DNA of 64,000 bases from NCBI GenBank assembly GCA_020249775.1, contig JADCFA010000002.1, forward strand, positions 124,001-188,000, read 5' to 3'. The notes beneath the pieces are model-generated. The model searched no databases. It had not been told where the DNA came from and saw only the letters and a program-made list of their open reading frames with translations. This DNA comes from Roseomonas sp. (GTDB taxonomy: Bacteria > Pseudomonadota > Alphaproteobacteria > Acetobacterales > Acetobacteraceae). Both the position numbers and the translations under genes were made by a program. This document shows, in pieces, positions 16,777-29,726 of this stretch (position 1 is its first letter; each line of letters begins with the position of its first letter).

Positions 16777-18341
16777 GCGCGCGGGGTTTCATCGCACTTG
16801 CTCTGCTGATGCTGCTTTGCGCCTCGGCGCTGCCCCTCGGGGCGGCGCTGGCGCAGGAAGTCCAGCGTGCGCCTGTTCATGAAGTGATCCCCGCCTTCCC
16901 GCGGGAGGAAATGCAGGAGGTTTTCGCCGCCGGCTTCGCCGCCATTCTGGACCGGCATATGGAACGCGCGCTGCCCAGTGATCTGATCACCTGGGGCCTG
17001 GCCGGCTTCACGGCAAATGATCCAAGCCTTCGGGTTGAAAGGCAGGGCCGGGAATTGCGCCTGATACGCGCGCGCCGGGTGCTGCTCAGCCGCGTCCTAC
17101 CAAGCGATTCTTCGCGCGGCAGGCCAGAGGCCATCGGCATGGCGGCAGCCGAAGCTTTGACGCCGTTTCAGGAGGCCGCCTGGGCAGCCTCCCCGCCTAT
17201 TCGCGATTTTGGCCGCGATCGGCTGCTACGCGCCAGTTTCAACGCCGTTTTCGGCCATCTTGACCCCTTCAGCCGCTATGTAACGCCCGAGGAAGCGCAG
17301 CTTGCGCGCGAAAGGCGGCTTGGGCAGGGGAGTGTCGGGCTCAGGCTTGCGGTGCAGCGCGGGCAGGTATTGGTGGCCGCCGTTACGCGGGACAGCCCGG
17401 CGGCCGCGGCCGGGATTCGCGTAGGCGATAGGCTGGTGACTGTGGATGATGAAATGGTCTTGGCGAATGACTTGGCCGGCGCGGAGCTGCTGCTGGAAGG
17501 CGCCGCCGAGACCGAGGTGACGCTGGTGACGCAGCGCGCCGGGCGAAGGCGGAGCACGACCCTGCGCCGCGTGGCGCAGCGCGTGGAGACAGCCACGGCG
17601 GCAATGCGCGACGGGGTGCTGCATCTGCGCGTTTCGGGCTTTACAGCGCTGACTTCCGCCCAGGTGACGGGCCTTGTAGAGGCTGCCTTTGCGGGGCCCA
17701 ATCCGCCGCGCGGCCTGATTTTGGATTTGCGCGGCAATCGCGGCGGCATCCTGACGCAGGCGGTGGCCGTGGCGGATATCTTCCTGGATGGCGGGGAGAT
17801 TGTGGGCACCGCCGGCCGTCACCCGGAGGCCAATCGACGCTATAATGCATCCGATACAGACCTCACCCAAGGCCGACCGATTGTGGTGATGGTGGATGGG
17901 CGTACTGCCTCGGCGGCGGAAATCCTGGCGGCGGCCTTGGCGGAACGTGGCCGGGCGGCGGTGCTTGGCACCGGCACCCAGGGCAAGGGCCTGGTGCAAA
18001 TCCTGCTGCCACTGCCCAATGGCGGGGAATTGCAACTGAGCTGGTCGCGCATTGTCATGCCCTCTGGCTGGCCCTTGCAGGGGGCGGGGCTATTGCCAGC
18101 GCTTTGCACGGCGGGGGGGAGTGAGGCAGCGGCTGGGGCGCTGGTGGCGCTGCGCGCCGGGCAGCAACCCATGGGCGCGGTGCTGGCGCGGCTGCGCGCA
18201 CTCCGCCCGCCGGTTTCGGCGATTGAAGCGACAAGCTTGCGCGAGACCTGCCCGGGGCTGGATGGGGTAGAGCGTGAGGCGGATTTCGCCCAGGCGCTGG
18301 TGACGGATGCGACCGCCTATCGGGCGGCGCTGATGCGTTGA
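16773..18341 (+). CDS. S41 family (C-terminal processing type) peptidase, exported; possible CTG start
   Basis: An exported serine protease of the CtpA/S41 family. A hydrophobic signal peptide (FIALALLMLLCASALPLGAALA) precedes the mature QEVQRAPVHE. A PDZ domain follows at about 180-260 (SVGLRLAVQRGQVLVAAV, SPAAAAGIRVGDRLVTVDDE). The S41 core contains LILDLRGNRGGI, VDGRTASAAEILAAAL with the nucleophilic Ser, and GTGTQGKGLVQ with the catalytic Lys. The start is uncertain. The first ATG after rnr (16809) cuts off most of the signal peptide, and no GTG or TTG lies in frame between it and the rnr region, whereas a CTG at 16773 gives a complete MSARGF signal peptide and a 4-base overlap with the rnr stop. 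Confidence 0.88.
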   Translation: MSARGFIALALLMLLCASALPLGAALAQEVQRAPVHEVIPAFPREEMQEVFAAGFAAILDRHMERALPSDLITWGLAGFTANDPSLRVERQGRELRLIRARRVLLSRVLPSDSSRGRPEAIGMAAAEALTPFQEAAWAASPPIRDFGRDRLLRASFNAVFGHLDPFSRYVTPEEAQLARERRLGQGSVGLRLAVQRGQVLVAAVTRDSPAAAAGIRVGDRLVTVDDEMVLANDLAGAELLLEGAAETEVTLVTQRAGRRRSTTLRRVAQRVETATAAMRDGVLHLRVSGFTALTSAQVTGLVEAAFAGPNPPRGLILDLRGNRGGILTQAVAVADIFLDGGEIVGTAGRHPEANRRYNASDTDLTQGRPIVVMVDGRTASAAEILAAALAERGRAAVLGTGTQGKGLVQILLPLPNGGELQLSWSRIVMPSGWPLQGAGLLPALCTAGGSEAAAGALVALRAGQQPMGAVLARLRALRPPVSAIEATSLRETCPGLDGVEREADFAQALVTDATAYRAALMR

Positions 18342-18375: not shown

Positions 18376-18846
18376 TTATTGTTTGAGGGGATCGCTGCGC
18401 CCTGTGACCTTCGCAATATCATCCGCCGTCAATTCAACGCGAAAGCCGCTTCGGACAAGCTCGGCAAACTCCTCATTGGGCAACATGACGGTCAGGCAAT
18501 AGAGCTTGTCCCGCCCGACATTGATCACCTCATGCTCATGGCCCGGCCGCACGATGAAGCTCTCGCCCGCCTTTACATGCACTTCCATCCCGTCACAGAT
18601 GGATTTTGCCTCGCCGCTCAGCACAAAGAACATCTCATGCGCATGGCCGTGGCGATGCCATGGAGTCTTGCCGCCCGGTTCGAAGATTTCGAGAAAAATG
18701 GAGAAAGGCACCTGATCCCTGATCGGATCCGCGATCATGGCGAAGTAATTGGTGTCCTTGTCGGAGATCTTGAATGTCTCAAGGTCCGCGATGCGCCGCG
18801 TAATGATGGGGGAAGGCGTCGCGGGGCTCGCTTCATCGTCGCTCAT
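18376..18846 (-). CDS. Cupin domain protein
   Basis: A 156-residue single-domain cupin. The two metal motifs are visible: GGKTPWHRHGHAHEMFFVLSG (three His and a Glu) and FIVRPGHEHEVINVG (final His). Such proteins are small metal-binding beta barrels acting as dioxygenases, isomerases or ligand sensors. The substrate cannot be told here. The gene is the last of the minus-strand transporter run, 34 bases after the permease stop, so it is probably co-transcribed with the ABC transporter. It may act on the transported compound or a breakdown product, but that is inference from position only. Confidence 0.85.
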   Translation of the reverse strand: MSDDEASPATPSPIITRRIADLETFKISDKDTNYFAMIADPIRDQVPFSIFLEIFEPGGKTPWHRHGHAHEMFFVLSGEAKSICDGMEVHVKAGESFIVRPGHEHEVINVGRDKLYCLTVMLPNEEFAELVRSGFRVELTADDIAKVTGRSDPLKQ

Positions 18847-18880
18847 GGATTTAATCCTGTCTTTGGGGTTTCAGCCAGGC

Positions 18881-20599
18881 TCAGCGCGCATAAAGCCGAT
18901 CCAGCCGCACAAGGCGGTTCAGAACCATCAATAGCAGAACCGTCACCACGATCAGAATGGCCGATACGGCGTGCACGGTTGGTTCCAGGCTGAAGCTCGC
19001 TTCCGCATAGATTCGTACTGGCAGGGTTGTCATGCGTGCTGTTGTCAGAAAGCTGGTTACGGTGACTTCCCCGAAGGAAATGAGGAAGCTCATGATACCT
19101 GCCGCGACAAGCCCGGGGGCAAGGCCTGGCATGATTACCCATAAGAAGCGGGCTGGTGCGGAAGCACCAAGGCTGGCAGCGGCATCTTCCTGTGCCTTGT
19201 CCAGCTGTTCCACCGATGCCTGAAGCAGCGCAATTGAGAAGGGCAGAACCAGCACAACATGCACGGCAAGCATGCCAAGAAAGGGAGGTATGGCGGTGAA
19301 AGCCTGCAAAAGCTTCAGCATGCCAACACCAATTGCAACATGAGGCAGGGAAAGCGGCAGGGTCCAAAAGGCTGAAAGCGCCGTCAGGCCGCGAAAGCGG
19401 TGGCGCGATAGGGCGAAGGCGGCGGGAAGTGCCAGACCAATTGCAAGCACCGCGGTTGCCGCGGCAAGCTGCACGGAAATCCTGAAACTGGCGGCATAGG
19501 CACCGCCGAACAAAACGCGTTCATACCATTTCAAGGTAAAGGCACGAAAGCCGGCAACGGTTGCCTGCGGCACATCATTGAAACTTTGGATCATCACCAG
19601 AACCAACGGCAACAACAGCAAAAGAAGGCTGCTGGCCAATAGCAACTTGCCAAGGACCGGACCGAACAGGTCCAAGACTTTGAGCAGCCATCCCGGCAGG
19701 CTTCGGAAGCTGCCGGGCGCGCCGCTTTTCCATGGTGTGAGCTTGCGCGTGATCCCAATCACGAGCAGTGCGAAGATGGTGCTTGCCAGTGTCATGACCA
19801 AGGCCAGGGCGGCGGCCATTGGTGCATTCAGATTTTGCAGTGCTTCCTGCCAAACCAACATGCCCGTTGTCCAAACCTTCTTGCCACCAAGCAGCGTGGC
19901 CGAGACATAGGCGGTTGATGCCATCAGGAAAACAATGATGATGCCGGCCCGAAGCCCCGGCAGGGATAGCGGCAAATCCACCAGAAAAACCCGGACGATG
20001 CGGGAAGCGCCGAGGCTTTCTGCCGCTTCATGCACACGCGGGCTGGTGCCCTGCAGCACATCATAAAGTGCAAGCACCATGAAGGGCATGAAAACCTGCG
20101 CCAAAGCCAGCGCCACGGCGCCATGGGTATAGAGCATTTGCCGAAAGGGCGGGATACCGAAGATACTTAGCACCTGGTTGATCAGCCCATCCGGCGCCAG
20201 CAGCAACACGATCCCAAGCGAACGCACGACCACATTGGTGAGCAAGGGAATAAGGATCACCGCAAAGGCCAGTGGTCGCCACTTGAGCGGTAGCCGCACC
20301 AGCCAGAGCGCCAGCGGATAGCCCAGCAGCACTGTCAGCGCCGTCACACCAGCGCCAAGCAGAATTGTCTCGACAATGATGCGAACGAGAAACTCATCAC
20401 TGAAAATCGAGATGAATTGCGCCGCCGAGGGTGGCTGAATGATCGGTCCGAAGGGATCGGGATATTCATGCAAGGAAAGCAGCGTCAGCACCGCAAAGGG
20501 TGCCGCGAAAGTCAGCAATAGCCAGAAGGTGACCGGAAACGCCAGCAGCGGTCCCGCGAAGGACCGTTGTGCTTTCGCTCCGATCACGGGTGGCGTCAC
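18881..20599 (-). CDS. ABC transporter permease, two PotB/PotC-like domains fused in one chain
   Basis: Inner-membrane component of a spermidine/putrescine-type importer. The 572-residue chain holds two complete permease domains of about 270 residues each. Each domain has about six membrane spans and its own EAA loop for docking the ATPase: EAAESLGASRIVRVFLVDLP near residue 200 and DAAASLGASAPARFLWVIMP near residue 495. In most relatives of the Pot family PotB and PotC are separate genes, while iron(III) transporters (FbpB) show the same fusion. I choose GTG 20599, which overlaps the binding-protein stop by 4 bases; an ATG at 20662 would overlap it by 67 bases. The cupin follows. Confidence 0.9.
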   Translation of the reverse strand: MTPPVIGAKAQRSFAGPLLAFPVTFWLLLTFAAPFAVLTLLSLHEYPDPFGPIIQPPSAAQFISIFSDEFLVRIIVETILLGAGVTALTVLLGYPLALWLVRLPLKWRPLAFAVILIPLLTNVVVRSLGIVLLLAPDGLINQVLSIFGIPPFRQMLYTHGAVALALAQVFMPFMVLALYDVLQGTSPRVHEAAESLGASRIVRVFLVDLPLSLPGLRAGIIIVFLMASTAYVSATLLGGKKVWTTGMLVWQEALQNLNAPMAAALALVMTLASTIFALLVIGITRKLTPWKSGAPGSFRSLPGWLLKVLDLFGPVLGKLLLASSLLLLLLPLVLVMIQSFNDVPQATVAGFRAFTLKWYERVLFGGAYAASFRISVQLAAATAVLAIGLALPAAFALSRHRFRGLTALSAFWTLPLSLPHVAIGVGMLKLLQAFTAIPPFLGMLAVHVVLVLPFSIALLQASVEQLDKAQEDAAASLGASAPARFLWVIMPGLAPGLVAAGIMSFLISFGEVTVTSFLTTARMTTLPVRIYAEASFSLEPTVHAVSAILIVVTVLLLMVLNRLVRLDRLYAR

Positions 20600-21642
20600 C
20601 CCGCAATCTCGCGGTTGAAGCGGCTGGTCCAGGCGGGTTGGTTGCGAATGACCACATCCCAATCGAAATCCACCAGCTTTGCGACATCAGGCCCAAGCAC
20701 AAGCTTGGGCTGCAATTCGGCGGGAATGGTGAGATTCTTCACCGTGGGCGAGTAATAGATTTGCTGTGCGTAAGCCAGCATGCAGGGTGCGGAAAGGTGC
20801 AGATTGATCCATTCTTCCGCAAGCTTCTGGTTGCGCGTGCCGACGGTGATGCAGGCGACATTCATGGCAATCGCCTGGCCTTCAACCGGATTGGCGATTT
20901 CAATATTCGGGTTGCGTGTTTCGGCATAACTCCGCGTAAAGCTGCCGAATTCGACCGAGATATCAGCAACGCCCTGATCAAACATACCATAAAGCTGATC
21001 CTGGCTGCCCTGGATGGCGGCGAAGGGTTTTAGCTCCCTGATCTTGCGGAAGCCGATATCAATCGCATTCTCACTGCCGCCGAAAATCTTCGCCGCCATC
21101 AGCAAGCCGGCGGTGCCCTGTGCCCCCGGATAGGATGGCCAGGCGATGCGCCCGCGCCATTCCGGATTCCACAAATCCTGCCAGCTTGTGACCGGCTTGG
21201 CGGCCTTGCGCTTGTCATAAACAATCGTGACGGGGTTGAAGGCCACGCCATAACCGCCAAGCTTCGCCACATCATACAGATTGGCAAATTGCGGCACCGC
21301 ATCTGTTGGCGCTTGTGTCACACCATCCCGCACGGCCTGGCGGCTTTCGAAGATATTCAGATAGATCACATCGAAGCTGGGACGGCCACGTTCAGCATAG
21401 GCGCGGGCGCGACGCTCTGGCGTGCCGCCCAGCACATAGCTGACCTTCACGCCGGGGTATTTCGCCAATAGGGCCTTTTCCACATGCTCACGCACAATGC
21501 GTTCCTGCGCGCCGCCCCAAATACCGACCACAAGCTCATCACCGGCTTTCGGCTGAGCCATGGCGGAGCGGCTGAAGTGTAATGGGGCGGCAAGGCCCGC
21601 ACCAAGAAGCAAGCGACCAATCTGTCTGCGCATTGTCGTCAT
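20596..21642 (-). CDS. ABC transporter substrate-binding protein, family 1 (PotD-like)
   Basis: Periplasmic binding protein of the importer encoded around it. The 348-residue precursor begins with a basic MTTMRRQIGRLLLGAGL signal peptide, probably cleaved after SRSAMA. The mature part has the PotD/family 1 layout: ELVVGIWGGAQERIV, the hinge region with FDVIYLNIFES, VTSWQDLWNPEWRGRIAWP, and a C-terminal WINLHLSAPCMLAYAQQ. A GGAAGG lies 7 bases before ATG 21642. The gene sits 28 bases after the ATPase and overlaps the permease by 4 bases. The ligand is not known; the neighbours suggest a small nitrogen compound rather than a polyamine. Confidence 0.91.
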   Translation of the reverse strand: MTTMRRQIGRLLLGAGLAAPLHFSRSAMAQPKAGDELVVGIWGGAQERIVREHVEKALLAKYPGVKVSYVLGGTPERRARAYAERGRPSFDVIYLNIFESRQAVRDGVTQAPTDAVPQFANLYDVAKLGGYGVAFNPVTIVYDKRKAAKPVTSWQDLWNPEWRGRIAWPSYPGAQGTAGLLMAAKIFGGSENAIDIGFRKIRELKPFAAIQGSQDQLYGMFDQGVADISVEFGSFTRSYAETRNPNIEIANPVEGQAIAMNVACITVGTRNQKLAEEWINLHLSAPCMLAYAQQIYYSPTVKNLTIPAELQPKLVLGPDVAKLVDFDWDVVIRNQPAWTSRFNREIAG

Positions 21643-21670
21643 GGGTTGTCCTTCCAGGAATGGGTTTCAG

Positions 21671-22702
21671 TCACGATAGAAAACTATAACCACCGGCAAG
21701 CGCGGTGATTTGGCAGGCGCGGCCGATGGCGGGCGGCGGCATATCTGAAGGTGAAAGAACGCGCACCAAACCTGCTGGCGTTTCCACCTCAACTTCATAA
21801 TCATCACCAAGGTAGATGGCCGAGGTTACCACGCCGCCGAGTCGCAGGGGTCCATTCGGCGTTTCTGAAAGGCGCAAGCGTGCAGCGCGCAGGATGATGG
21901 CCTTTGCCCCGGCCGGAGCATCGGCACAGCCAAGGCCCGGCGCTTCAAAGATGCCATTACTGCTGCGCCCGGCAATAACGCTGCGCGCACCCAGGAAGGA
22001 CGCGGTAAAGGCTTCTTGCGGATGATCGCAAAGGGCCTGCGGCGTACCAACCTCAATCAACTTGCCTTGCTGCATCACCGCGATGCGATCTGACATTGCA
22101 AGCGCTTCTTCCTGATCATGCGTCACGAACAGCGTTGTAATGGCCAGGCGCTGCTGCAGGCGCCGAATTTCGCCGCGCATTTCAACGCGCAGATTCGCAT
22201 CCAGATTGGACAAGGGCTCATCTAGCAGCAGCACATCCGGTTCGATGACCAGGGCGCGCGCAAGTGCCACACGCTGCTGTTGCCCGCCGGAAAGCTGCGA
22301 TGGATAGCGATTGGCAAGGCGTGACAGTGCCACCATTTCGAGTGCCGCCCCGGCCTTGCGCTGGCATTCCGCCTGGCCAATGCCGCGCATACGGAGCCCA
22401 AAGGCGACATTGCGCAGAATATCCATATGCGGAAACAGCGCATAGGATTGAAAGACAACGCCCATATTGCGCCGATGCGCCGCAAGCGCGGTGATGTCCT
22501 TGCCATTCACCTGTACCCGGCCCGCGGAAGGCGCCACAAACCCGGCCACCATGCGCAGGGTGGTGGTCTTGCCGCAGCCAGAGGGGCCAAGCAACGCGAC
22601 AAGCTCTCCCTTGCCAACCTCAAGCGTCACCGCATCCACCGCCAGTGTCGTGCCGAATTGAGCGGACAGACCGTCGAGGATGAGATAGGGCGGTTGTTTC
22701 AT
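21671..22702 (-). CDS. ABC transporter ATP-binding protein (PotA-like)
   Basis: ATPase that drives the importer formed with the next two genes. The 343-residue protein has Walker A LLGPSGCGKTTTLRMVAGF, the Q-loop VVFQSYALFPHM, the signature LSGGQQQRVALARALV, Walker B DVLLLDEPLSNLD and the switch His in TLFVTHDQEEAL. A C-terminal TOBE-like domain (about residues 240-343) is typical of PotA/FbpC/MalK-type subunits. I start it at ATG 22702 (MKQPPYLILDG), with AAGG 9 bases upstream. Upstream in-frame sequence is not conserved in character. A sigma-54-like promoter lies about 43-58 bases upstream. Confidence 0.94.
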   Translation of the reverse strand: MKQPPYLILDGLSAQFGTTLAVDAVTLEVGKGELVALLGPSGCGKTTTLRMVAGFVAPSAGRVQVNGKDITALAAHRRNMGVVFQSYALFPHMDILRNVAFGLRMRGIGQAECQRKAGAALEMVALSRLANRYPSQLSGGQQQRVALARALVIEPDVLLLDEPLSNLDANLRVEMRGEIRRLQQRLAITTLFVTHDQEEALAMSDRIAVMQQGKLIEVGTPQALCDHPQEAFTASFLGARSVIAGRSSNGIFEAPGLGCADAPAGAKAIILRAARLRLSETPNGPLRLGGVVTSAIYLGDDYEVEVETPAGLVRVLSPSDMPPPAIGRACQITALAGGYSFLS

Positions 22703-22744
22703 GACACCTTCATGTTTGTTTCGATATGCAACGCCTTCTTGAGA

Positions 22745-22760
22745 TGCAAATGAAGGGCCA
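22745..22760 (-). promoter_or_regulatory. Candidate sigma-54 promoter (-24/-12) for the ABC transporter operon
   Basis: On the minus strand the 16 bases read TGGCCCTTCATTTGCA. Compared with the consensus TGGCACGNNNNTTGCW they keep the GG and GC dinucleotides at the right spacing and differ only at positions 5 and 7. Transcription would start near 22734, giving a leader of about 30 bases to the ATPase start at 22702 with a proper ribosome site. The element falls in the 64-base gap after the cyclic-amide hydrolase gene. Confidence 0.55.
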
Positions 22761-22766
22761 TGCCCT

Positions 22767-23852
22767 CTAGACCCGCGCAATGACTGCAACGGGCCCGCCG
22801 CCATCCGGCCCCTGATGCTCGGCGCCGCCTGAGACGAATAGGCGCGTATCGCCAATCACCCCGGCCAAAACGCCACCCACCAAGGCGCGGGCATGGCGTG
22901 TTGCGTTGATATCGCTGTCATCGCGCATGATATGGCGCGCCCCGCGAATGGTGCTGCCATGCGGCGGTTCCGCCTTGGCCAATACCGCCGCGATGCGCCC
23001 GCGCGCCGCATCATCAAGCTGCCCTTCACCCTTGAGGCCAAGCTCCTCAAGCGCAGCCCAAAGTGCCAGGGAATCAATTCCATCCTTCATCACGCGATGC
23101 GCAATGGCAAGATCGCCGGCCCAGGCGTTGGAATTGCCGAGCACCATGATTTCGTTGCGCATCAGCTCAATGCCGGCCGAGGTACTCGCCACGCCGGAAT
23201 GAAGCGACCAATCGGTGCATACAACGCTATCGGTGGCTTTGGCGGCATCCATTTCGCCAAGCGCCACCGCAACACCAAGCGCAGAAGCACCGCGCGAAAA
23301 ACCCATGGATTCATAGGTATCAATGCAGACAACATCCTGTCCTTCGGCGCGTTCGGCAGTCAGCAGTGGGCATTTGACCTGAACATAATGCACATCCTTT
23401 GGATCGGTAATGCCGGCCTGTGCCATGGCGGCGCGTACGGCCTTGGCGGTTTCCTGAATCTGGGCGCTGCGACCGATTTCGGATGCGGTGAAGTCACGCG
23501 TAAACCCCGTGCCAATGGCAAGTCGTTTGGCGGTTGGATCAGGTGTGCCATCATTGGCAACCGCGAAGACGATCATATGCGGACTTAGGCCACCTTCCGT
23601 TCCACCCGACATCACCAGCGCAATGCGCGCGCCTACTTCTGCGGGCGTCATGCCGGTCGCCTCTGCCAGGGCCAGCTTCATCGCAAGTGTGGCATAGCCG
23701 CGGGTGAAATCATTGACGCAGCCATTACCCTCCGTCTTGCCCAGGATCGCGACAATGCTTTTGGGATCAAGCCGCCCTGCGGCAAAGGCCCCTTTCAGCG
23801 CCGACATATCGGCCGGATCACGCATGGGCAGGCGTTCAACAATGGCGCGCAT
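22767..23852 (-). CDS. Cyanuric acid hydrolase / barbiturase family ring-opening amidohydrolase
   Basis: The 361-residue protein belongs to the small AtzD/TrzD/barbiturase family, which opens cyclic ureide or imide rings (cyanuric acid to carboxybiuret, or barbiturate to ureidomalonate). It has three repeated domains with Ser-Lys pairs. Visible are GKTEGNGCVNDFTRG (Lys39) with MSGGTEGGLSPH (Ser82), VQVKCPLL (Lys160) with SRGASALGVAVALGE and STSAGIELMRNE, and LAKAEPPHGS (Lys293) with VSGGAEHQGPDGGGP (Ser341). The length matches AtzD (about 363). Sequence alone does not tell cyanuric acid from barbituric acid specificity. The gene follows the creatininase by 47 bases. The divergent atzG-, atzE- and atzH-like genes argue for an AtzD-like role. 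Confidence 0.93.
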   Translation of the reverse strand: MRAIVERLPMRDPADMSALKGAFAAGRLDPKSIVAILGKTEGNGCVNDFTRGYATLAMKLALAEATGMTPAEVGARIALVMSGGTEGGLSPHMIVFAVANDGTPDPTAKRLAIGTGFTRDFTASEIGRSAQIQETAKAVRAAMAQAGITDPKDVHYVQVKCPLLTAERAEGQDVVCIDTYESMGFSRGASALGVAVALGEMDAAKATDSVVCTDWSLHSGVASTSAGIELMRNEIMVLGNSNAWAGDLAIAHRVMKDGIDSLALWAALEELGLKGEGQLDDAARGRIAAVLAKAEPPHGSTIRGARHIMRDDSDINATRHARALVGGVLAGVIGDTRLFVSGGAEHQGPDGGGPVAVIARV

Positions 23853-23899
23853 GTGGCGGGCTCCTCAGATTTTCTCTCTGATACGTCGAACGCCTTGGC

Positions 23900-24724
23900 T
23901 CAGGGCGCATTATACATTGTTTGGCGCGTGATCCGTTCCAGCGGATAGGCATGCACTTCACTGCAAAGCTGTACCAGCGCCTCTGCCGCGCGCTGCACAA
24001 CAATGCTGCCACGCGCCGCATCGGCCGAAGCGGCATCCCCACAGGCACCCGATGGTTCCAAATCCTGTGTCTGCCAGCCAAAGCCAACCGCGCCTTCGGG
24101 TGTCAGCATGCCGCCGGCTTTTTCGATCTCAATCGAAATGGGCGCGAAATTGGCGGCATGTTCCATGGCTATCAAATCACGATGCAAATGCAGCATGACG
24201 CTGGTTTCCACTTCGCCGCCATGGATGCCGTGCTTCAGTTCCATGGCGCTGAAAAGATCATCCTGCCTGGTGATATTCCACCAGGTTGCCGTCACCACGA
24301 ACATTTCATGACGCACGCGGAGTTCCCTCGCGACAATATCGGCGACTTGGGGTTGACCACCGTGGGAATTGAACAGGATCAGTTTGCGGCAGCCGGCGCG
24401 CAGCACACTTTCCCCGATATCGAACCAAAGACGGAACAGCGTTTCATGCGAAAGGCTGAGCGTGCCGGGGAAGGCGTGATGTTCATTGGATTTGCCAATC
24501 GGCATCATGGGCAGCACAAGCACCGGCAGATCATCCGGCATCAGCGCCATGGCCTGCGCAATGATGCCCTGGTTGATCGCCGCATCAACCTTGATGGGCA
24601 AATGTGGCCCATGCTGTTCGGTGGCGGCCACAGGCAGGATGGCGACCAGATTCGCCATATCCATTTCGGCGAATTCCTTGGTGGAATGGTCCCACCACCA
24701 ATGGGATTTTAAACGCGATGTCAT
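23900..24724 (-). CDS. Creatininase family protein (creatinine amidohydrolase-like)
   Basis: The 274-residue product belongs to the creatininase family of metal-dependent cyclic-amide hydrolases. The metal and active-site motifs are visible: LPVAATEQHGPHLPIKVDA (Glu, His and Asp ligands), IGKSNEHHAFPGTLSLS, LFNSHGGQPQVADIVAREL and HGIHGGEVETSVML (Glu ligand). Family members open creatinine or related five-membered rings, or act on formamide groups in cofactor synthesis, so the substrate is open. It lies directly upstream of the AtzD-family gene on the same strand, which suggests a joint role in breaking down a nitrogen-rich ring compound. There is no obvious Shine-Dalgarno before ATG 24724. 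Confidence 0.9.
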   Translation of the reverse strand: MTSRLKSHWWWDHSTKEFAEMDMANLVAILPVAATEQHGPHLPIKVDAAINQGIIAQAMALMPDDLPVLVLPMMPIGKSNEHHAFPGTLSLSHETLFRLWFDIGESVLRAGCRKLILFNSHGGQPQVADIVARELRVRHEMFVVTATWWNITRQDDLFSAMELKHGIHGGEVETSVMLHLHRDLIAMEHAANFAPISIEIEKAGGMLTPEGAVGFGWQTQDLEPSGACGDAASADAARGSIVVQRAAEALVQLCSEVHAYPLERITRQTMYNAP

Positions 24725-24750
24725 GCCGCACTAAAAGCGCGCGGGCGGAT

Positions 24751-24766
24751 AGCAAACAAGGCGCCC
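24751..24766 (-). promoter_or_regulatory. Weak sigma-54-like element before the creatininase gene
   Basis: On the minus strand the sequence GGGCGCCTTGTTTGCT keeps GG and GC at the -24/-12 spacing but departs from TGGCACGNNNNTTGCW at positions 1, 5 and 7. A start near 24740 would leave a leader of only about 16 bases. It is listed because three better matches exist in the same locus. By itself it would be unconvincing in GC-rich DNA. Confidence 0.25.
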
Positions 24767-24950
24767 GCAGGGCAAAGATTGGCGGCTAAGCCGCGCGTGA
24801 GGACTTCTGCCCATTTTGCGCCCATTTGATGCACAAAAATTGGGCGGTCTATTTCCGTCCAGGCGATAAACGGCGGCGACTGCACCGCGCCCAACCACTC
24901 GCCTTTTCGGCAGCGGGTTGCTCGCGCCTGACCCGCCCGCTGCCCGAATG

Positions 24951-25892
24951 TCAAGCGAAAAGGGCTTTCGGCAGCATGCCGTGAACACCCTTGGACGTGT
25001 TCACCGTCTGCGTCACATGAAAATCAACGCCGACAGAGCACAGCGTATAGGCATCCATCCGCGTCATATTCTTGGTCTCAACAAGGTAGTCAATCATTTC
25101 ACGCAGTGCGATTTCCATGGAACGATCAAGGCTGGTGTCGAAACCCATGGTGATGACATGTGTGGGCGTTTCAGCGCGCGGCTGCTTCAGCGCCATATCC
25201 TTGCGCACGGTCAGGCGGAACTTGCCCTGTAGGGCGGTTTCAATGGCGGTCAGGCAGACCTCTCCGTCACCCTGGGCGCCATGACCATCACCGCAGGAGA
25301 AATTGGCGCCGGCGACATGCACAGGCAAATAAAGTGTCGTGCCGGCGACAAGCTGCTTATTGTCTATATTGCCGCCAAAGCTGCGCGGAATGACCGATGT
25401 GCAGCGACCCCAATTCTTCGGCGGCGCAACCCCCATAATGCCAAAAAAGGGTTTCAGCGGAATATCCACGCCAAAGGGCAAGCGCCCAATCATCTTTTCG
25501 GCATCAAGAGGAATGTTCAGAATGCGGCCTTCGGGAAATTCATCCGGCAGCGTCCCACCCAAGGGGCGGATCAGGTTGAAGCCCCAATCCTGGCGCAGCT
25601 TGATGTCCAGGATATCCACTTGCAGCACATTGCCTGGCTCCGCGCCCTCAACCGCCACCGGACCCGTCAGGATATGCGGGGCGCCGGCAAAGCGATCATT
25701 TTTCTGATGCACCGCGAATAATTCCGGCGGCGTGTGGAAGGGCTTTGGCGGCACCATTTCCGGCGGGCCGGTCAGCGTATCAATCGTGACCTCGTCACCA
25801 CTCGCGATGGTGATTTGCGCCGGGCGCGCGGCATCAAAATAGCCCCAATGGCAGGCATCGGCGCTGGCGGCGAGGTAATGGCTTTTGGGCAT
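24951..25892 (-). CDS. Acetamidase/formamidase family protein
   Basis: The 313-residue protein matches the FmdA/AmdA family, which hydrolyses formamide, acetamide or similar short amides to ammonia and the acid. Visible features are the all-beta N-terminal region (ITIASGDEVTIDTLTG), the GPVAVEGAEPGNVLQVDILD barrel strand, FFGIMGVAP, the family motif GGNIDNKQLVAGTTLYLPV, and NFSCGDGHGAQGDGEV with the conserved acidic and His residues. It is the first gene of the minus-strand run and is divergent from the atzG-like gene. It would release the last ammonia from a formamide-like fragment, but that is inference. The 226 bases between it and the creatininase contain no convincing gene. Confidence 0.93.
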   Translation of the reverse strand: MPKSHYLAASADACHWGYFDAARPAQITIASGDEVTIDTLTGPPEMVPPKPFHTPPELFAVHQKNDRFAGAPHILTGPVAVEGAEPGNVLQVDILDIKLRQDWGFNLIRPLGGTLPDEFPEGRILNIPLDAEKMIGRLPFGVDIPLKPFFGIMGVAPPKNWGRCTSVIPRSFGGNIDNKQLVAGTTLYLPVHVAGANFSCGDGHGAQGDGEVCLTAIETALQGKFRLTVRKDMALKQPRAETPTHVITMGFDTSLDRSMEIALREMIDYLVETKNMTRMDAYTLCSVGVDFHVTQTVNTSKGVHGMLPKALFA

Positions 25893-25972
25893 GGTGCGCT
25901 CTTTCTCTGGTTGGGCAAGGAAAGATCAGGTCGCGTAACGCGTAGCTTTTGGCGTGATCAATGGCAATAGCG

Positions 25973-25988
25973 TGGCATGGTGCTTGCT
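25973..25988 (+). promoter_or_regulatory. Sigma-54 promoter (-24/-12) for the atzG-atzE-atzH-like operon
   Basis: The plus strand reads TGGCATGGTGCTTGCT, which matches the consensus TGGCACGNNNNTTGCW at every fixed position except position 6 (T for C). Transcription would start near 26000, about 72 bases before the atzG-like ATG at 26072. Sigma-54 promoters need an enhancer-binding activator such as NtrC, and a TGGTGC half-site overlaps the element. It lies in the 179-base divergent region shared with the formamidase gene. Confidence 0.7.
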
Positions 25989-26035
25989 GATCCCTCATAG
26001 CGCCGGACAATCCGTGTTGCGAGATCATCCGGGTA

Positions 26036-26053
26036 AGCGTCGGTATTGACGCT
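26036..26053. repeat. Inverted repeat in the leader of the atzG-like gene
   Basis: AGCGTC, six bases, then GACGCT form a perfect 6-base inverted repeat ending 18 bases before the atzG-like start. It lies downstream of the expected start site of the sigma-54 promoter. It could be an operator or a leader hairpin. A second short palindrome, CGCGT-A-ACGCG, occurs near 25932-25942. Confidence 0.4.
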
Positions 26054-26071
26054 CTTTAAGGGCTGAATTGC

Positions 26072-26278
26072 ATGAATGATGCCACCGAAATGGATGTGAA
26101 GGCCTATGCTGATACCATGGCAAAAGCCTTGGACTTGCCATTGACGGCGGAATACGCGCCGCAGGTTGAAGCCAATCTTGCCCTGGCCTTTCGGCTTGTG
26201 CAGCTGGTGCTTGATTTTCCCCTGCCCGATGAAGCGGAACCCGCGCCGGTTTTTGTAGCCCAAGGCAATCAGGCATGA
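26072..26278 (+). CDS. AtzG-like small subunit (DUF4089 family)
   Basis: A 68-residue, mostly helical acidic protein (MDVKAYADTMAKALDLPL, YAPQVEANLALAFRLVQLVL, DFPLPDEAEPAPVF). Its size and FPLPDEAEPAP tail fit the DUF4089 family, whose founding member AtzG is the small partner that stabilises the AtzE amidase, much as GatC serves GatA. Its stop overlaps the amidase start by 4 bases (ATGA), the expected coupling for a complex. ATG 26072 is chosen; a second Met at codon 7 is possible. Recognition rests on the combination of size, tail motif and the amidase next door. Confidence 0.85.
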   Translation: MNDATEMDVKAYADTMAKALDLPLTAEYAPQVEANLALAFRLVQLVLDFPLPDEAEPAPVFVAQGNQA

Positions 26279-27666
26279 AGGATTGGACGCAGGAACCCGC
26301 GCATCGCATTGCGGATGCGGTAAGCGGCGGTGCGGTCTCGGCGCGCCGTGTGGCGGAACAGCATTTGGCCGCCATTGCGCGCCTTAATGACCGGCTGAAA
26401 GCTTATACGGATATCACCGCCAGCCGAGCACTTGCCCGTGCCGATGCCATTGATGCGGCGCGCGCAAAGGGCCAGCCCTTGCCACCGCTTGCCGGTGTTC
26501 CCTTCGCGGTCAAGAATTTGTTTGATGTGGAGGGCTTGGTTACGCGTGCGGGTTCCAAGATCAACCGCGATCATGCGCCAGCACAGCAGGATGCAACGCT
26601 TATCACGCGGATGGAGGCCGCCGGCGCGGTGCTGCTCGGTGCGCTCAATATGGGTGAATACGCCTATGATTTTACCGGCCGCAATGCGCATGATGGCAAT
26701 TCGCTGAACCCCCATGATACGGCGCGCATGACTGGCGGGTCATCAGGTGGTTCGGGCGGTGCCGCCGCTGCGGGGCTTGCGGCCATTACACTCGGGTCCG
26801 ATACCAATGGGTCCATCCGCGTTCCGGCATCGCTTTGTGGTCTGTTTGGATTGAAGCCGAGCTATGGCGGGCTGTCGCGCGCCGGCACCTTTCCTTTTAT
26901 TGCAAGCCTTGATCATGTCGGGCCACTTGCGCGTTCGGTGCAGGATCTGGCGCTTGCTTATGACGCGATGCGCGGCGCTGACCCGCTTGACCCGGTCTGC
27001 ACCGGTGGCAGCGCGGCGCCGGTTTCGCCGGCGCTTACAGCCGGCATCAAGGGGCTGCGTATCGCGCGCGCCGGCGGCTACTTCACGCGCATGGGTGAAG
27101 CGCAGGCCTTCGCCGCCGTGGAGCTGGTGGCGCATGCGCTGGGCGCTGAACGGAGCGTGGAATTCCCCGAAGCGCATCGCGCCCGCGCTGCCGCTTTCAT
27201 CATCACCATGATCGAAGGATCAGCCCTGCATCGGGACCGTATTCGCGCAAGGCCCGCGGATTTCGACCCTGAAGTGCGCGATAGGCTCATTGCCGGCGCC
27301 ATGCTGCCCGGCGATTGGTATGTAAAGGCGCAAAAATTCCGCCGCTGGTTTCAGACAAAAGCCTTGAAGCTGTTTGCTGAGACCGATCTGATCCTGGCCC
27401 CCGCAACCCCCACATCGGCACCGCTGGTGGATCAAAAAACTTTCGTGCTGGATGGCCAAACCCTGCCCGTGCGGCCCAATCTTGGCATCTTCACCCAGCC
27501 CATTTCCTTCATCGGCCTGCCGGTAGTCACTGTGCCGGTTTGGCCGGAACAGGGCATGCCGATCGGCGTGCAGATCATCGCCGCGCCTGGCCAGGAAGCG
27601 CTTGCCCTCCGCGCGGCGCATTGGTTGGAAAGCCAGCATATTGTTCACGCCAAACCAGCACGCTGA
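26275..27666 (+). CDS. AtzE-like amidase (1-carboxybiuret hydrolase family)
   Basis: A 463-residue amidase-signature enzyme. The catalytic triad can be placed at Lys80 ([11 protein letters not shown]), cis-Ser156 ([13 protein letters not shown]) and nucleophile Ser180 ([16 protein letters not shown]), with the same spacing as GatA. It is not a GatA: it lacks the gatC/gatB context, has a GatC-like small partner in DUF4089, and a true gatA exists at 4455. In Pseudomonas sp. ADP the AtzE-AtzG complex hydrolyses 1-carboxybiuret, the product of AtzD. Here the AtzD-family gene lies divergently 2.4 kb away. The AtzH-like gene follows after 10 bases. The exact substrate in this organism is inferred. 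Confidence 0.9.
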
Positions 27667-27676
27667 GGAGACAGTC

Positions 27677-28057
27677 ATGGAGATCAATATTGCCGAGGTG
27701 AAGGCCGAGGTTGAAGTGGCCTTTGCCGAATACGAAAAGGCGCTGATCAGCAATGATGTCGAAACACTGGACCGGCTTTTCCTGGATAGCCCGAACACCA
27801 TCCGCTATGGCGCAGCCGAAAATCTCTATGGCTATGCGGAAATCGCTGCCTTCCGCGCGGGCCGACCATCAGCAGGGCTGGAACGTAGCCTGGAACGGAC
27901 TGTCATCACCACCTATGGGCGTGATATGGCAACCGCCTGGACCATGTTTCGCCGCCCTTCCCTGCCCGGAAAAATTGGCCGGCAAAGCCAGGTATGGATG
28001 CGCACGCCTGAAGGTTGGCGCGTGGTAGCCGCGCATGTCTCTGTTATCGCGGAATAG
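27677..28057 (+). CDS. AtzH-like protein (DUF3225, SnoaL-like fold)
   Basis: A 126-residue alpha+beta protein of the SnoaL/NTF2-like superfamily with the DUF3225 pattern. AtzH of strain ADP has been proposed to convert 1,3-dicarboxyurea, the AtzE product, to allophanate, with Tyr22 and Arg46 needed for activity. Here Tyr19 (AFAEYEKAL) and Arg43 ([14 protein letters not shown]) are present with the identical 24-residue spacing, so catalysis looks conserved. A GAGGAG ribosome site stands 7 bases before ATG 27677, 10 bases after the amidase stop. It is the third gene of the operon. It converges on the family 5 binding protein with 11 bases between stops and no terminator. Confidence 0.9.
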
Positions 28058-28068
28058 GAAGGGCGCGC

Positions 28069-29676
28069 TCAACTGACCGCGATTTGCGTGTAATCCTGGA
28101 ACCAATTCCGCGCCTGCACAAAACCGCGGCAGCGTGCACTCAAGGCGCGCGGATTGAGGTCATGCACCACGGCAAGCAAGGACGCCTCATCGATCAGGAT
28201 TTCATGCAGCCGCGCCATGGCGCGTGTTTGTTCCGCCGGGTCGAAAGCGTTGCGCACCACAGCAAGCTGCGCATTCACCGCCGGGGAATTATGCAGCCCC
28301 CAATTAATCCCGCGCGGCGGCGCCAACTCTCCATCATAAATGAACCAGCCGGTATTCGGTTCCATGGACGGGATGGCGATATTCAAGGCATGCCCGCCGC
28401 GTGAGGAAGCATCGCGTGCACCGGCCCGCAGCATATTGATGGAGGTTGCAAAATCCACCGGCTGGAAGGTGACATCAAAGAAGCATTCCTTGAGGCCGGC
28501 TTGCATCGCCTCATTCATCGGTTGCGGCACCATCTGGCCGCCGCCGGATACCGGCATGATCACGCTCAGCGCACAGCGCCGCGTGGCGGAATAGCCAGCT
28601 TCGGTCATAAGTCGCCGCGCCTCGGCCGGGTCATGGCGGAGCCGGAAGGAAGGGTTGCCGAACCACGGATCATCCGGCGTGACCTTGCCGCGTGCCGCCA
28701 GTGCCGCGCCGGAAAGCAGCGCCACGATCCCGTCGCGATCTATCGCCAAATTGGCCGCTTGCCGCACCCGGAGATCAGCAAAGGGGCTGCCTTCGGAAAC
28801 ATTCAAGCGCCAGGCCCAGATATGCGGATAGGCATTCTGCACCACTTGAAAGCGCGCGGCGCGCAAGGATGGGATGGTATCCGGCGGCAGGCTTTCCACC
28901 AGATCAATCTGCCCGCTCCGCAGCGCCGCAACCCGCGCCGAGCCATCCGGGATTGGCAGCAATACGGTGCGCGGCGCCTTGGGGATGCGGTTTGGGTCCC
29001 AATAGTCGCGATTGGCTTCCAAATCCGCGCGTTGCCGCGGCGTAACATTGGTTACCTTATAGGGGCCGGTGCCGGAAGGGTTGAGCGCAAAGCGTTGCCA
29101 ATCCCCGCCAAGCGCCTGCCAATGCGTGGGCGACGCAAACCAAATAAAGGCAAGCTGGAAGGGCAGGGACGCATCTATGGCGCGCGTGGTGATCGCGATG
29201 CGGTATGTATCAAGCTTCTCGTAGCCGCCGATGGAGGTAATGCGACCGCGCACCAGGGCTGAACGTGTCGGTTCAAATTGCGGCGCCTGATTGTTCAGGA
29301 TGGAATCGAAATTCCAGATCGCAGCATCGGCATCAAAGGGCGTGCCATCATGGAATTTTACCCCCTGACGAAGCTCTATGATCCAACGCCGCCGATCGGC
29401 TTCATCCACCCGCCAGGAAGTGGCGAGGCCAGGCATCAGCCCGGATGGCGCATCAGCCTTGGACAAATCCCAAAGCGCCAGCGCGTCATAGACAAAATAG
29501 GCGCCGAACCGCACGCCTTCAAAGCCGGCTTCCGGGCCGCCCCACAGGCGCGGCACATCGCCGATGGACATCGCAATGCGTAGCGGCTGGGCAGCCTGCG
29601 CTTCGGCCAGGGAAGGACCAAGGGCGGTGAGTAAGGCTGGAGCGGCCAAAAGGGCGCGACGCGAGACAGAGGTCAT
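28069..29676 (-). CDS. ABC transporter substrate-binding protein, family 5 (DppA/OppA-like), Tat-type signal
   Basis: A 535-residue periplasmic binding protein of the peptide/nickel/opine family. The N-terminus MTSVSRRALLAAPALLTALG has a twin-arginine-like SRR followed by a hydrophobic stretch, with cleavage expected near AEAQA. The family signature is visible in WIIELRQGVKFHDGTPFDADA and later LRVRQAANLAIDRDGIVALL, DPAEARRLMTEAGY. No permease or ATPase of this class lies beside it, so it is an orphan binding protein that may use a transporter elsewhere. A perfect sigma-54 promoter lies 35-50 bases upstream, tying it to the nitrogen locus. I chose ATG 29676 over an ATG 39 bases upstream, which would overlap the promoter leader. 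Confidence 0.91.
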   Translation of the reverse strand: MTSVSRRALLAAPALLTALGPSLAEAQAAQPLRIAMSIGDVPRLWGGPEAGFEGVRFGAYFVYDALALWDLSKADAPSGLMPGLATSWRVDEADRRRWIIELRQGVKFHDGTPFDADAAIWNFDSILNNQAPQFEPTRSALVRGRITSIGGYEKLDTYRIAITTRAIDASLPFQLAFIWFASPTHWQALGGDWQRFALNPSGTGPYKVTNVTPRQRADLEANRDYWDPNRIPKAPRTVLLPIPDGSARVAALRSGQIDLVESLPPDTIPSLRAARFQVVQNAYPHIWAWRLNVSEGSPFADLRVRQAANLAIDRDGIVALLSGAALAARGKVTPDDPWFGNPSFRLRHDPAEARRLMTEAGYSATRRCALSVIMPVSGGGQMVPQPMNEAMQAGLKECFFDVTFQPVDFATSINMLRAGARDASSRGGHALNIAIPSMEPNTGWFIYDGELAPPRGINWGLHNSPAVNAQLAVVRNAFDPAEQTRAMARLHEILIDEASLLAVVHDLNPRALSARCRGFVQARNWFQDYTQIAVS

Positions 29677-29710
29677 GCGGATAAATCCTGAAGCAGCATA
29701 ATTTGTCCCA

Positions 29711-29726
29711 AGCAATGCGCGTGCCA
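29711..29726 (-). promoter_or_regulatory. Perfect-consensus sigma-54 promoter for the family 5 binding protein
   Basis: On the minus strand the 16 bases read TGGCACGCGCATTGCT, which matches TGGCACGNNNNTTGCW at every fixed position. With C at -12 on 29712, transcription would start near 29700, giving a leader of about 24 bases with CAGGAT before ATG 29676. Chance occurrence of a full match in 64 kb is unlikely. Confidence 0.8.

Follow-up and report, generated by a model that had tools for sequence, protein, structure and literature searches.

We analysed 64,000 nucleotides (64 kb; hereafter the window) of a Roseomonas sp. draft genome (assembly GCA_020249775.1, contig JADCFA010000002.1, positions 124,001 to 188,000), in which an 11-gene block of 11.3 kb at window positions 18376-29726 encodes the cyanuric acid enzymes AtzD, AtzG, AtzE and AtzH together with an importer and several other proteins. 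The source genome (G000, with the block on contig C12) is 4.07 Mb in size. On the minus strand the genes run in the order fmd, creatininase-family gene, atzD, ATPase, binding protein, fused permease and cupin, while atzG, atzE and atzH follow one another on the plus strand and a family 5 binding-protein gene converges on atzH. Its neighbours on either side in the window are genes for a carboxy-terminal protease and for an L,D-transpeptidase-like protein, both named from a reading of the proteins. All genes that the original prediction had placed together here were recovered with high-scoring family matches, and no RNA family scored above its Rfam gathering score between positions 18000 and 30500.

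Cyanuric acid enzymes in the block and in trans

AtzD (22767-23852, minus strand) is of the cyanuric acid hydrolase type. It matches PF09663 with 484 bits, exceeds the cut-offs of the cyanuric acid amidohydrolase model NF052395 (529.7 vs. 360 bits) and of TIGR02714 (459.8 vs. 153), and is 53% identical to AtzD of plasmid pADP-1. Section 12 of PMC3758960 sets out at which residues cyanuric acid hydrolases differ from barbiturase. Mapped by motif onto that numbering, the window AtzD has Arg195, Thr321, Arg325, Gly345 and Gly346, that is, the RTRGG signature at all five positions, and it also carries KSKSKS, with all three Ser-Lys dyads. The barbiturase signature (Asn195, His321, Lys325, Val345, Ser/Ala346) is not that of the window AtzD, and 38 of 48 aligned proteins share a signature identical to its own. 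Such a signature does not prove the substrate of AtzD, yet none of the sequence features tested favours barbiturate. The gene sits within the minus-strand operon, 47 bases from the creatininase gene and about 61 bases from the ATPase gene. No partner common to AtzD loci was found: the largest partner family occurred in seven of 29 loci compared, which were drawn from 40 fetched loci by leaving out the AtzF-cluster loci and L058, L072, L076 and L078, and the simple gene caller used for this comparison recovered AtzD itself in 24 of the 29.

The AtzG-like small subunit (68 aa) is encoded by an open reading frame (ORF) at 26072-26278 of the plus strand, which overlaps atzE by 4 bases. AtzE (26275-27666, plus strand) is an amidase of the 1-carboxybiuret hydrolase type (PRK09201, 701 bits; cut-off 461) that retains the Lys and Ser motifs of the amidase signature, and AtzH/HpxZ (27677-28057, plus strand) matches NF033625 with 194 bits (cut-off 135). 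Identity to the pADP-1 proteins is 53.8% for AtzE, 62.7% for AtzH and only 24.6% for AtzG. Among solved structures, AtzE matches best the biuret hydrolase 6c62, an entry that carries the sequence of pADP-1 AtzE itself; AtzH is closest to the AtzH entry 6bjt and only slightly less close to 2rcd. Nine AtzH pocket residues are named in passages of PMC6219798, and all nine are conserved in the window protein. Among 30 further loci tried, which included GGT-linked HpxZ, a match was obtained in all but L180; seven of the nine positions are kept in 29/29 and all nine in 27/29, L184 and L190 deviating at one position each. The pocket points to the same chemistry, not to which pathway it serves.

In a 36-row tree of AtzE, the window protein and its genus orthologues fall within an alphaproteobacterial clade (support 100/99), outside which lie pADP-1 AtzE and the GGT-linked L185 and L187, from another class. 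Within this clade, atzF was the commonest partner seen, being present in the fetched stretch in eight of 15 rows from outside the genus. Contexts were fetched for 20 of 33 AtzE matches outside the own genome, and the partners were an AtzF homologue in eight, AtzD in two (L175 and L181) and GGT in two (L185 and L187); in one context (L189) an FmdA-family gene is divergent from atzE.

The original prediction had noted that atzF is missing and suggested looking for an allophanate hydrolase elsewhere. The absence holds for the window only, and two overlapping genes on contig C16 of the same genome encode AtzF (TIGR02713, 530 bits vs. 511 for the amidase part). The amidase-part gene (L078:9568-10920) aligns with residues 38-473 of pADP-1 AtzF at 45% identity and the C-domain gene (L078:9173-9571) with residues 480-604 at 56%, the two genes overlapping in ATGA. 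Another frame considered for the C domain (L078:9148-9561) was rejected, as its rate of nonsynonymous substitution (dN) was above that of synonymous substitution (dS). Both parts are present in the related clusters checked, and a like split is annotated on plasmid p1-AD2 of Roseomonas mucosa AD2 (L317). Because AtzD is of the cyanuric acid hydrolase type, AtzE and AtzH fit the route and AtzF is encoded elsewhere in the genome, the textbook cyanuric acid route is predicted to be complete in trans.

Promoter elements, conservation and history of the AtzD step

Two sigma-54 promoter elements with exact consensus precede atzG (25973-25988, plus strand) and the family 5 binding-protein gene (29711-29726, minus strand). 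They are the only exact matches to TGGCAYRNNNNTTGCW in the 64 kb (shuffle mean 0.16), and two or more such matches arose in only one of 100 shuffles; with one mismatch allowed there was no excess (3 matches vs. 4.6 expected). The element upstream of atzG is conserved in 5/5 loci covering it, amid a poorly conserved spacer, and the one upstream of the binding-protein gene is exact in all three readable loci (window, L058 and L191). The genome also has rpoN, and both elements recur in sister loci; the proposal of a sigma-54-linked nitrogen locus is supported. No exact element was found upstream of the minus-strand operon (fmd to cupin), and the conserved predicted elements of the ADP type are those of atzG and the binding-protein gene only. 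In Pseudomonas sp. ADP, sigma-54 dependence has been described for the operon atzDGEHF and its divergent transporter operon (passages of PMC6834077); because the ADP cyanuric acid operon is itself sigma-54 dependent, this feature points towards the known route and not away from it. An NtrC-type dyad, TGCACNNNNNNGTGCA, had zero matches in the window with at most one mismatch (3.8 expected); sigma-70-like sites numbered 2 vs. 4.2 in shuffles and terminator-like sites 26 vs. 13.0.

The block, which we also refer to as the cassette, was found in six of 35 genus genomes (G000, G165, G1039, G1041, G1043 and G1047), so that the objection of a neighbourhood conserved in no relative does not apply. AtzD as such is encoded by 14 of the 35, namely these six and eight with larger genomes. 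In a subclade of 17 genomes whose AtzF is at least 89% identical to the own one (one genome by a partial match), a creatininase orthologue (at least 83% identity) and AtzD co-occur in exactly the six, and neither was found in the other 11, several of these genomes being incomplete drafts. The order atzH, atzE, atzG, fmd, creatininase, atzD, ATPase to cupin recurs in L058, L191, L193 and L194 up to the limits of their contigs, and L192 begins at the creatininase gene; atzD lies between the creatininase and ATPase genes in all five of these sister loci, which represent several chromosomal settings. The family 5 binding-protein gene adjoins atzH in L058, L191 and L194. At that position L193 has a stretch of about 1.8 kb (L193:1-1842) that carries other frames, one of them transposase-like by reading. 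As to the flanks, L191 has a leuB-like gene on the binding-protein side, and next to the cupin in L058 and L193 lies an ABC importer of the dipeptide type, both names again resting on reading. The block is maintained as a unit in at least three chromosomal settings.

In the four sister loci reaching the respective gene, AtzG is 81-93% and the cupin 85-91% identical to the window protein. Against L193, L191 and L058, dN/dS of the locus genes is 0.02-0.19, indicating purifying selection; this range omits a non-orthologous match of the binding protein in L193 (0.55). Against L194 it is 0.04-0.11, with 0.20 for an interrupted fmd, whose 46% identity stems from the interrupted frame and not from divergence of the gene. 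We do not favour the idea that the six genomes exchanged the cassette recently, as its dS against G165 (0.59-1.0) is no lower than that of the background there (0.37-1.13). CtpA had no match in the stretches around the L,D-transpeptidase-like gene of 14 relatives, some of them ended by contig ends, and the integration site is uninformative.

The AtzF cluster of the genus consists of genes for GntR, AtzF, the AtzF C domain, an NMT1 binding protein, an ATPase, AtzD and a PF01522 protein. In six congeners (L042, L046, L050, L057, L062 and L068), atzD stands between the ATPase and PF01522 genes, and in a seventh (L069) the contig ends behind atzD, before the PF01522 gene. In the own genome, and in all 13 sister clusters from the small-genome subclade in which this junction is readable (L204 and L206 break off too early), the ATPase gene abuts the PF01522 gene with no atzD, and the cluster lacks atzD in one larger-genome congener too (G036, L210). 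Because this AtzF cluster has no AtzD of its own, the cassette AtzD would supply the missing step in the six genomes having the cassette. The cassette AtzD clade is sister to the 76% identical AtzD of G425, a member of another family (support 100/99). We rejected the idea that the AtzD of the congeners had moved into the cassette, since a shared clade with the AtzF-cluster AtzDs fails the approximately unbiased test (p 1.1e-63). As judged from these trees, the cassette AtzD is a xenologue and the AtzD step was lost and then regained within one genus. The PF01522 protein of the AtzF cluster (L078:5691-6575) is weakly like the allantoinase PuuE (82 bits; cut-off 425) and may fill the step held by biuret hydrolase or AtzE in other bacteria.

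Further hydrolases, importer and related clusters

The creatininase-family metal hydrolase (23900-24724, minus strand; PF02633, 236.7 bits) reaches the cut-off of none of the three NCBIfam equivalogs that it matches (TIGR04448, 93.5 vs. 235 bits). Its AlphaFold2 model (pLDDT 89.4) has creatininase 1q3k as best PDB match, with a TM-score of 0.74 and 25% identity. In the alignment the creatininase motif NGHYEN corresponds to NSHGGQ in the window protein, with Gly replacing Glu; PDB entries titled E122Q are creatininase mutants at that Glu, and Glu122 presumably has a role in the creatininase reaction. These tests and the model suggest a creatininase-like fold and a protein that is not a creatinine amidohydrolase, and creatinine is an unlikely substrate; a creatinine-like compound had been among those put forward for the pathway. 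The first gene of the minus-strand operon encodes an amide hydrolase of the FmdA/AmdA family (24951-25892, minus strand) that matches the superfamily PF03069 (125.7 bits) only, its score with the formamidase equivalog NF045496 being 83 bits vs. 500. The last gene encodes a cupin (Cupin_2; 18376-18846, minus strand; PF07883, 68.6 bits). The extra hydrolases are real, as had been proposed, and evolve under purifying selection, though two of the sister drafts have a broken fmd frame. Another contig of the genome carries one more creatininase-family gene (45% identity; G000:C8:160338-161099) and one more FmdA-family gene (55%; G000:C8:34481-35428).

The importer is a PotABC-like set kept with the locus in relatives, in line with the suggestion that the block has one of its own. 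It comprises a PotA-like ABC ATPase (21671-22705, minus strand; PF00005, 127.5 bits; TOBE_2), whose longest ORF starts at 22855 and whose likely ATG is at 22705; a PotD/PhnS-like solute-binding protein (20596-21642, minus strand; PF13343, 66.9 bits); and a fused PotB-PotC-like ABC permease (18881-20662, minus strand), which the NCBIfam models PotB (157 bits) and PotC (131 bits) match in two stretches each, below their cut-offs. The true start of the permease is probably further downstream than that of its ORF, because the ORF frame overlaps the binding-protein gene. The family 5 solute-binding protein (SBP_bac_5; 28069-29676, minus strand; PF00496, 224.8 bits) is an orphan in the window. Its ORF reaches 29715, and it probably starts at an ATG near 29676, because the TTG at 29715 overlaps the sigma-54 promoter.

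A close known counterpart of the block is the atzDGEHF operon of pADP-1 (Pseudomonas sp. ADP, NC_004956), with which the genome shares homologues of AtzD, G, E, H and F, the catalytic residues compared and the sigma-54 feature. Unlike in pADP-1, the five genes do not form one operon here: atzD lies opposite atzGEH, and atzF, divided between two genes, is found on a different contig. The importer is of the BMP type (AtzT) there and PotABC-like here, and the creatininase, FmdA and cupin genes are added here. The AtzF cluster of the genus likewise shares a cyanuric acid hydrolase and an allophanate hydrolase, but its AtzD is of another lineage and no AtzGEH was seen in it. On a P. putida plasmid, genes for LysR, AtzD, AtzF, AtzG, AtzE and AtzH occur in this order with a nucleobase-type (SLC23) permease.

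Other clusters share the creatininase-importer part. A plasmid of Roseomonas mucosa HV2 (NZ_CP025062, L112) has the cupin, creatininase, ATPase, binding protein (70%), fused permease, an amidase and an AtzH-like gene, but differs in lacking AtzD and FmdA and in having isochorismatase, CocE/NonD hydrolase and LysR genes; its amidase is of another subfamily (PRK08310). Plasmid operons of Rhizobium sullae (L110) and Neorhizobium galegae (L111) and a metagenome-assembled genome (MAG) of Alsobacter (L213) share the creatininase (63-70%) and the PotABC-like importer (ATPase 63-72%, permease 66-74%), and no AtzGEH was found there. In L110 and L213, a CocE/NonD (S15) hydrolase gene lies between the creatininase and ATPase genes, the slot of atzD in the window, and in L111 this slot holds a like-sized, unclassified frame. 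The PotD/PhnS-like binding protein has 69-82% identical matches in five of 72,556 plasmid records (E 1e-60), the nearest of which (82%, Terrarubrum) belongs to a set of ATPase, binding protein and permease that has no hydrolase of this kind next to it. Among the best 80 creatininase loci of the matches listed, AtzD was within reach in two (L211 and L212, judged to be L191 and L192 once more), both from this genus. Of the same 80 loci, 42 have a NitT-type ATPase and 34 a FAD_binding_4 protein; a creatininase-family gene with a NitT-type ABC importer and a FAD_binding_4 protein thus recurs across Proteobacteria (L214-L290). Our search of the openly licensed PMC literature found no paper on a creatininase-NitT-FAD_binding_4 cluster, and only PMC12625717 for cyanuric acid and creatininase together; passages of that paper mention, for one archaeal MAG, a gene resembling creatininase that lies close to one for biuret hydrolase.

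AtzD relatives also occur beside hydrolases of the ureide or purine type. Skermanella rosea pSR-2 (NZ_CP086113, L307) and G642 (L314) share an AtzD with the cyanuric acid hydrolase signature, directly followed by an FmdA-family gene. They differ in carrying allantoinase-like and deaminase-like amidohydrolases, DUF3830 and NitT-type importers, and have no creatininase, AtzGEH or PotABC. Azospirillum ramasamyi has a cluster of the Skermanella type without AtzD, and the four further FmdA contexts read on plasmids, one of them that of Azospirillum, all lack AtzD. In G593 (L115), AtzD, an SDR protein and an allantoinase-like enzyme (54.5% identical to that of Skermanella) are joined to isochorismatase, M20 and Rieske genes, and the cluster adjoins a creatininase-cupin set in which the creatininase frame holds one stop. 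The whole stretch (L115:1-18364, G593:C3) encodes two VanA_C-type Rieske oxygenases and a third resembling the first, an S15 hydrolase, a FAD enzyme, cytosine-deaminase and allantoinase-like enzymes, two isochorismatases, creatininase, cupin and AtzD, and looks like an oxidative pathway for an N-heterocycle. An AtzD-family gene on a plasmid of Acidithiobacillus caldus (NZ_CP026329, L316:1306-13006) is accompanied by genes for xanthine dehydrogenase, ureidoglycolate lyase, AtzG-like protein, AtzE, HpxZ and GGT. Its signature (Arg, Met, Arg, Thr, Arg) is that of group IV of PMC3758960, for which section 12 of that paper does not report an activity, and a role of this AtzD in purine breakdown is possible.

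Proposed function and alternatives

On balance, we think that the locus is probably a cassette for scavenging nitrogen under sigma-54 control, organised around the 1-carboxybiuret route for cyanuric acid and with extra steps for ureides or triazines. In the scheme that we infer, the PotABC-like importer would take up the compound, and the family 5 binding protein might lend itself to another permease. The creatininase-family, FmdA-family and cupin proteins would process an imported ureide or triazine precursor, or a side product, feeding the route. AtzD would open the cyanuric acid ring to 1-carboxybiuret, AtzG-AtzE would deaminate this to 1,3-dicarboxyurea, AtzH would remove one carboxyl to give allophanate, and the two-gene allophanate hydrolase encoded on the other contig would free the last ammonia. 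The textbook core is more complete than the original prediction held, and its surroundings are less usual: the statement that the pathway is not the textbook branch is not supported, given the residues of AtzD specific to cyanuric acid hydrolases, AtzF in trans and the sigma-54 control of the ADP operon. A further ureide or triazine substrate is possible.

Several observations weigh against this cassette reading. AtzD and AtzGEH are encoded on opposite strands and not in one operon, and atzG-atzE-atzH clusters occur in many Proteobacteria, rarely with atzD or atzF (section 14 of PMC6219798); roles with diverse nitrogenous compounds have been proposed for them in the same section. As a substrate test the AtzH pocket was dropped as not discriminating, since GGT-linked HpxZ share it. 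Several of the genus genomes are incomplete drafts, which makes absences there soft. L193 has no family 5 binding-protein gene beside atzH, and the fmd frame is interrupted in two of four sister loci covering it (L191 and L194), which could be decay or, these being draft assemblies, an error. Moreover, the closest relatives of the creatininase-importer part outside the genus are without AtzD, so the two parts may serve different substrates.

This last point, together with the cyanuric acid hydrolase signature, the complete route in trans and the ADP-like sigma-54 control, would also fit an ordinary cyanuric acid locus, in which AtzD, AtzGEH and AtzF in trans are all that counts, the genes for the creatininase, FmdA, cupin and importer being neighbours that serve some other purpose. 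We consider this rather unlikely, because atzD is embedded in the minus-strand operon and keeps the same slot in 5/5 sister loci across several settings, and because AtzD and FmdA genes are neighbours independently in Skermanella rosea and G642. Alternatively, the added hydrolases of two other folds, and the AtzD relatives with the cyanuric acid hydrolase signature beside allantoinase-like enzymes in Skermanella and G593, could mean that the cassette degrades a non-cyanuric ring, such as a cyclic ureide or imide, on which AtzD itself acts. That is unlikely in our judgement: all five specificity residues and the three dyads match characterised cyanuric acid hydrolases, AtzGEH and AtzF form the matching downstream set, and urate oxidation is named as a source of cyanuric acid in passages of PMC7948467. 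AtzG-AtzE-AtzH might also form the oxalurate (HpxXYZ) branch of purine breakdown, with AtzD as a separate activity, as NCBIfam names AtzH HpxZ, GGT-linked clusters share its pocket and, on the A. caldus plasmid, an AtzD-family gene lies together with those for xanthine dehydrogenase, AtzG-E-HpxZ and GGT. We regard this as very improbable, given that there is no HpxW-like GGT gene among the 11 locus genes (the search covered these genes and not the rest of the genome), that AtzE lies outside the GGT-linked clade of L185 and L187 and inside the clade in which AtzF is the commonest partner (8/15), and that the AtzD signature of A. caldus differs.

Beyond the cassette reading, a broader proposal, which we rate as quite unlikely, is that the locus represents a natural, non-herbicide route for s-triazine or ureide products of urate or purine oxidation. 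The cupin, creatininase-family and FmdA-family proteins would act on relatives of cyanuric acid by decarboxylation, opening and deacylation, AtzD and AtzGEH would take cyanuric acid itself, and AtzD would have been recruited several times into ureide clusters. The conversion of oxonate or 5-azauracil via N-formylbiuret to biuret would be an example of such chemistry. If this were true, it is in ureide clusters that cyanuric acid hydrolases would have their native place.

What is new in this locus is its architecture, in which known cyanuric acid enzymes are joined to an importer and to further ring and amide hydrolases. It also presents a two-gene allophanate hydrolase and, as predicted from the trees, the loss and xenologous return of the AtzD step in one genus. 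Together with the Skermanella, G593 and Acidithiobacillus clusters, it puts AtzD-family ring openers beside ureide- or purine-type hydrolases and importers, and through these relatives a natural role in ureide use or urate oxidation becomes testable. The added enzymes provide a short, testable list of candidates for finding the native substrates, and the block hints at natural roles of cyanuric acid enzymes beyond the breakdown of weedkillers.

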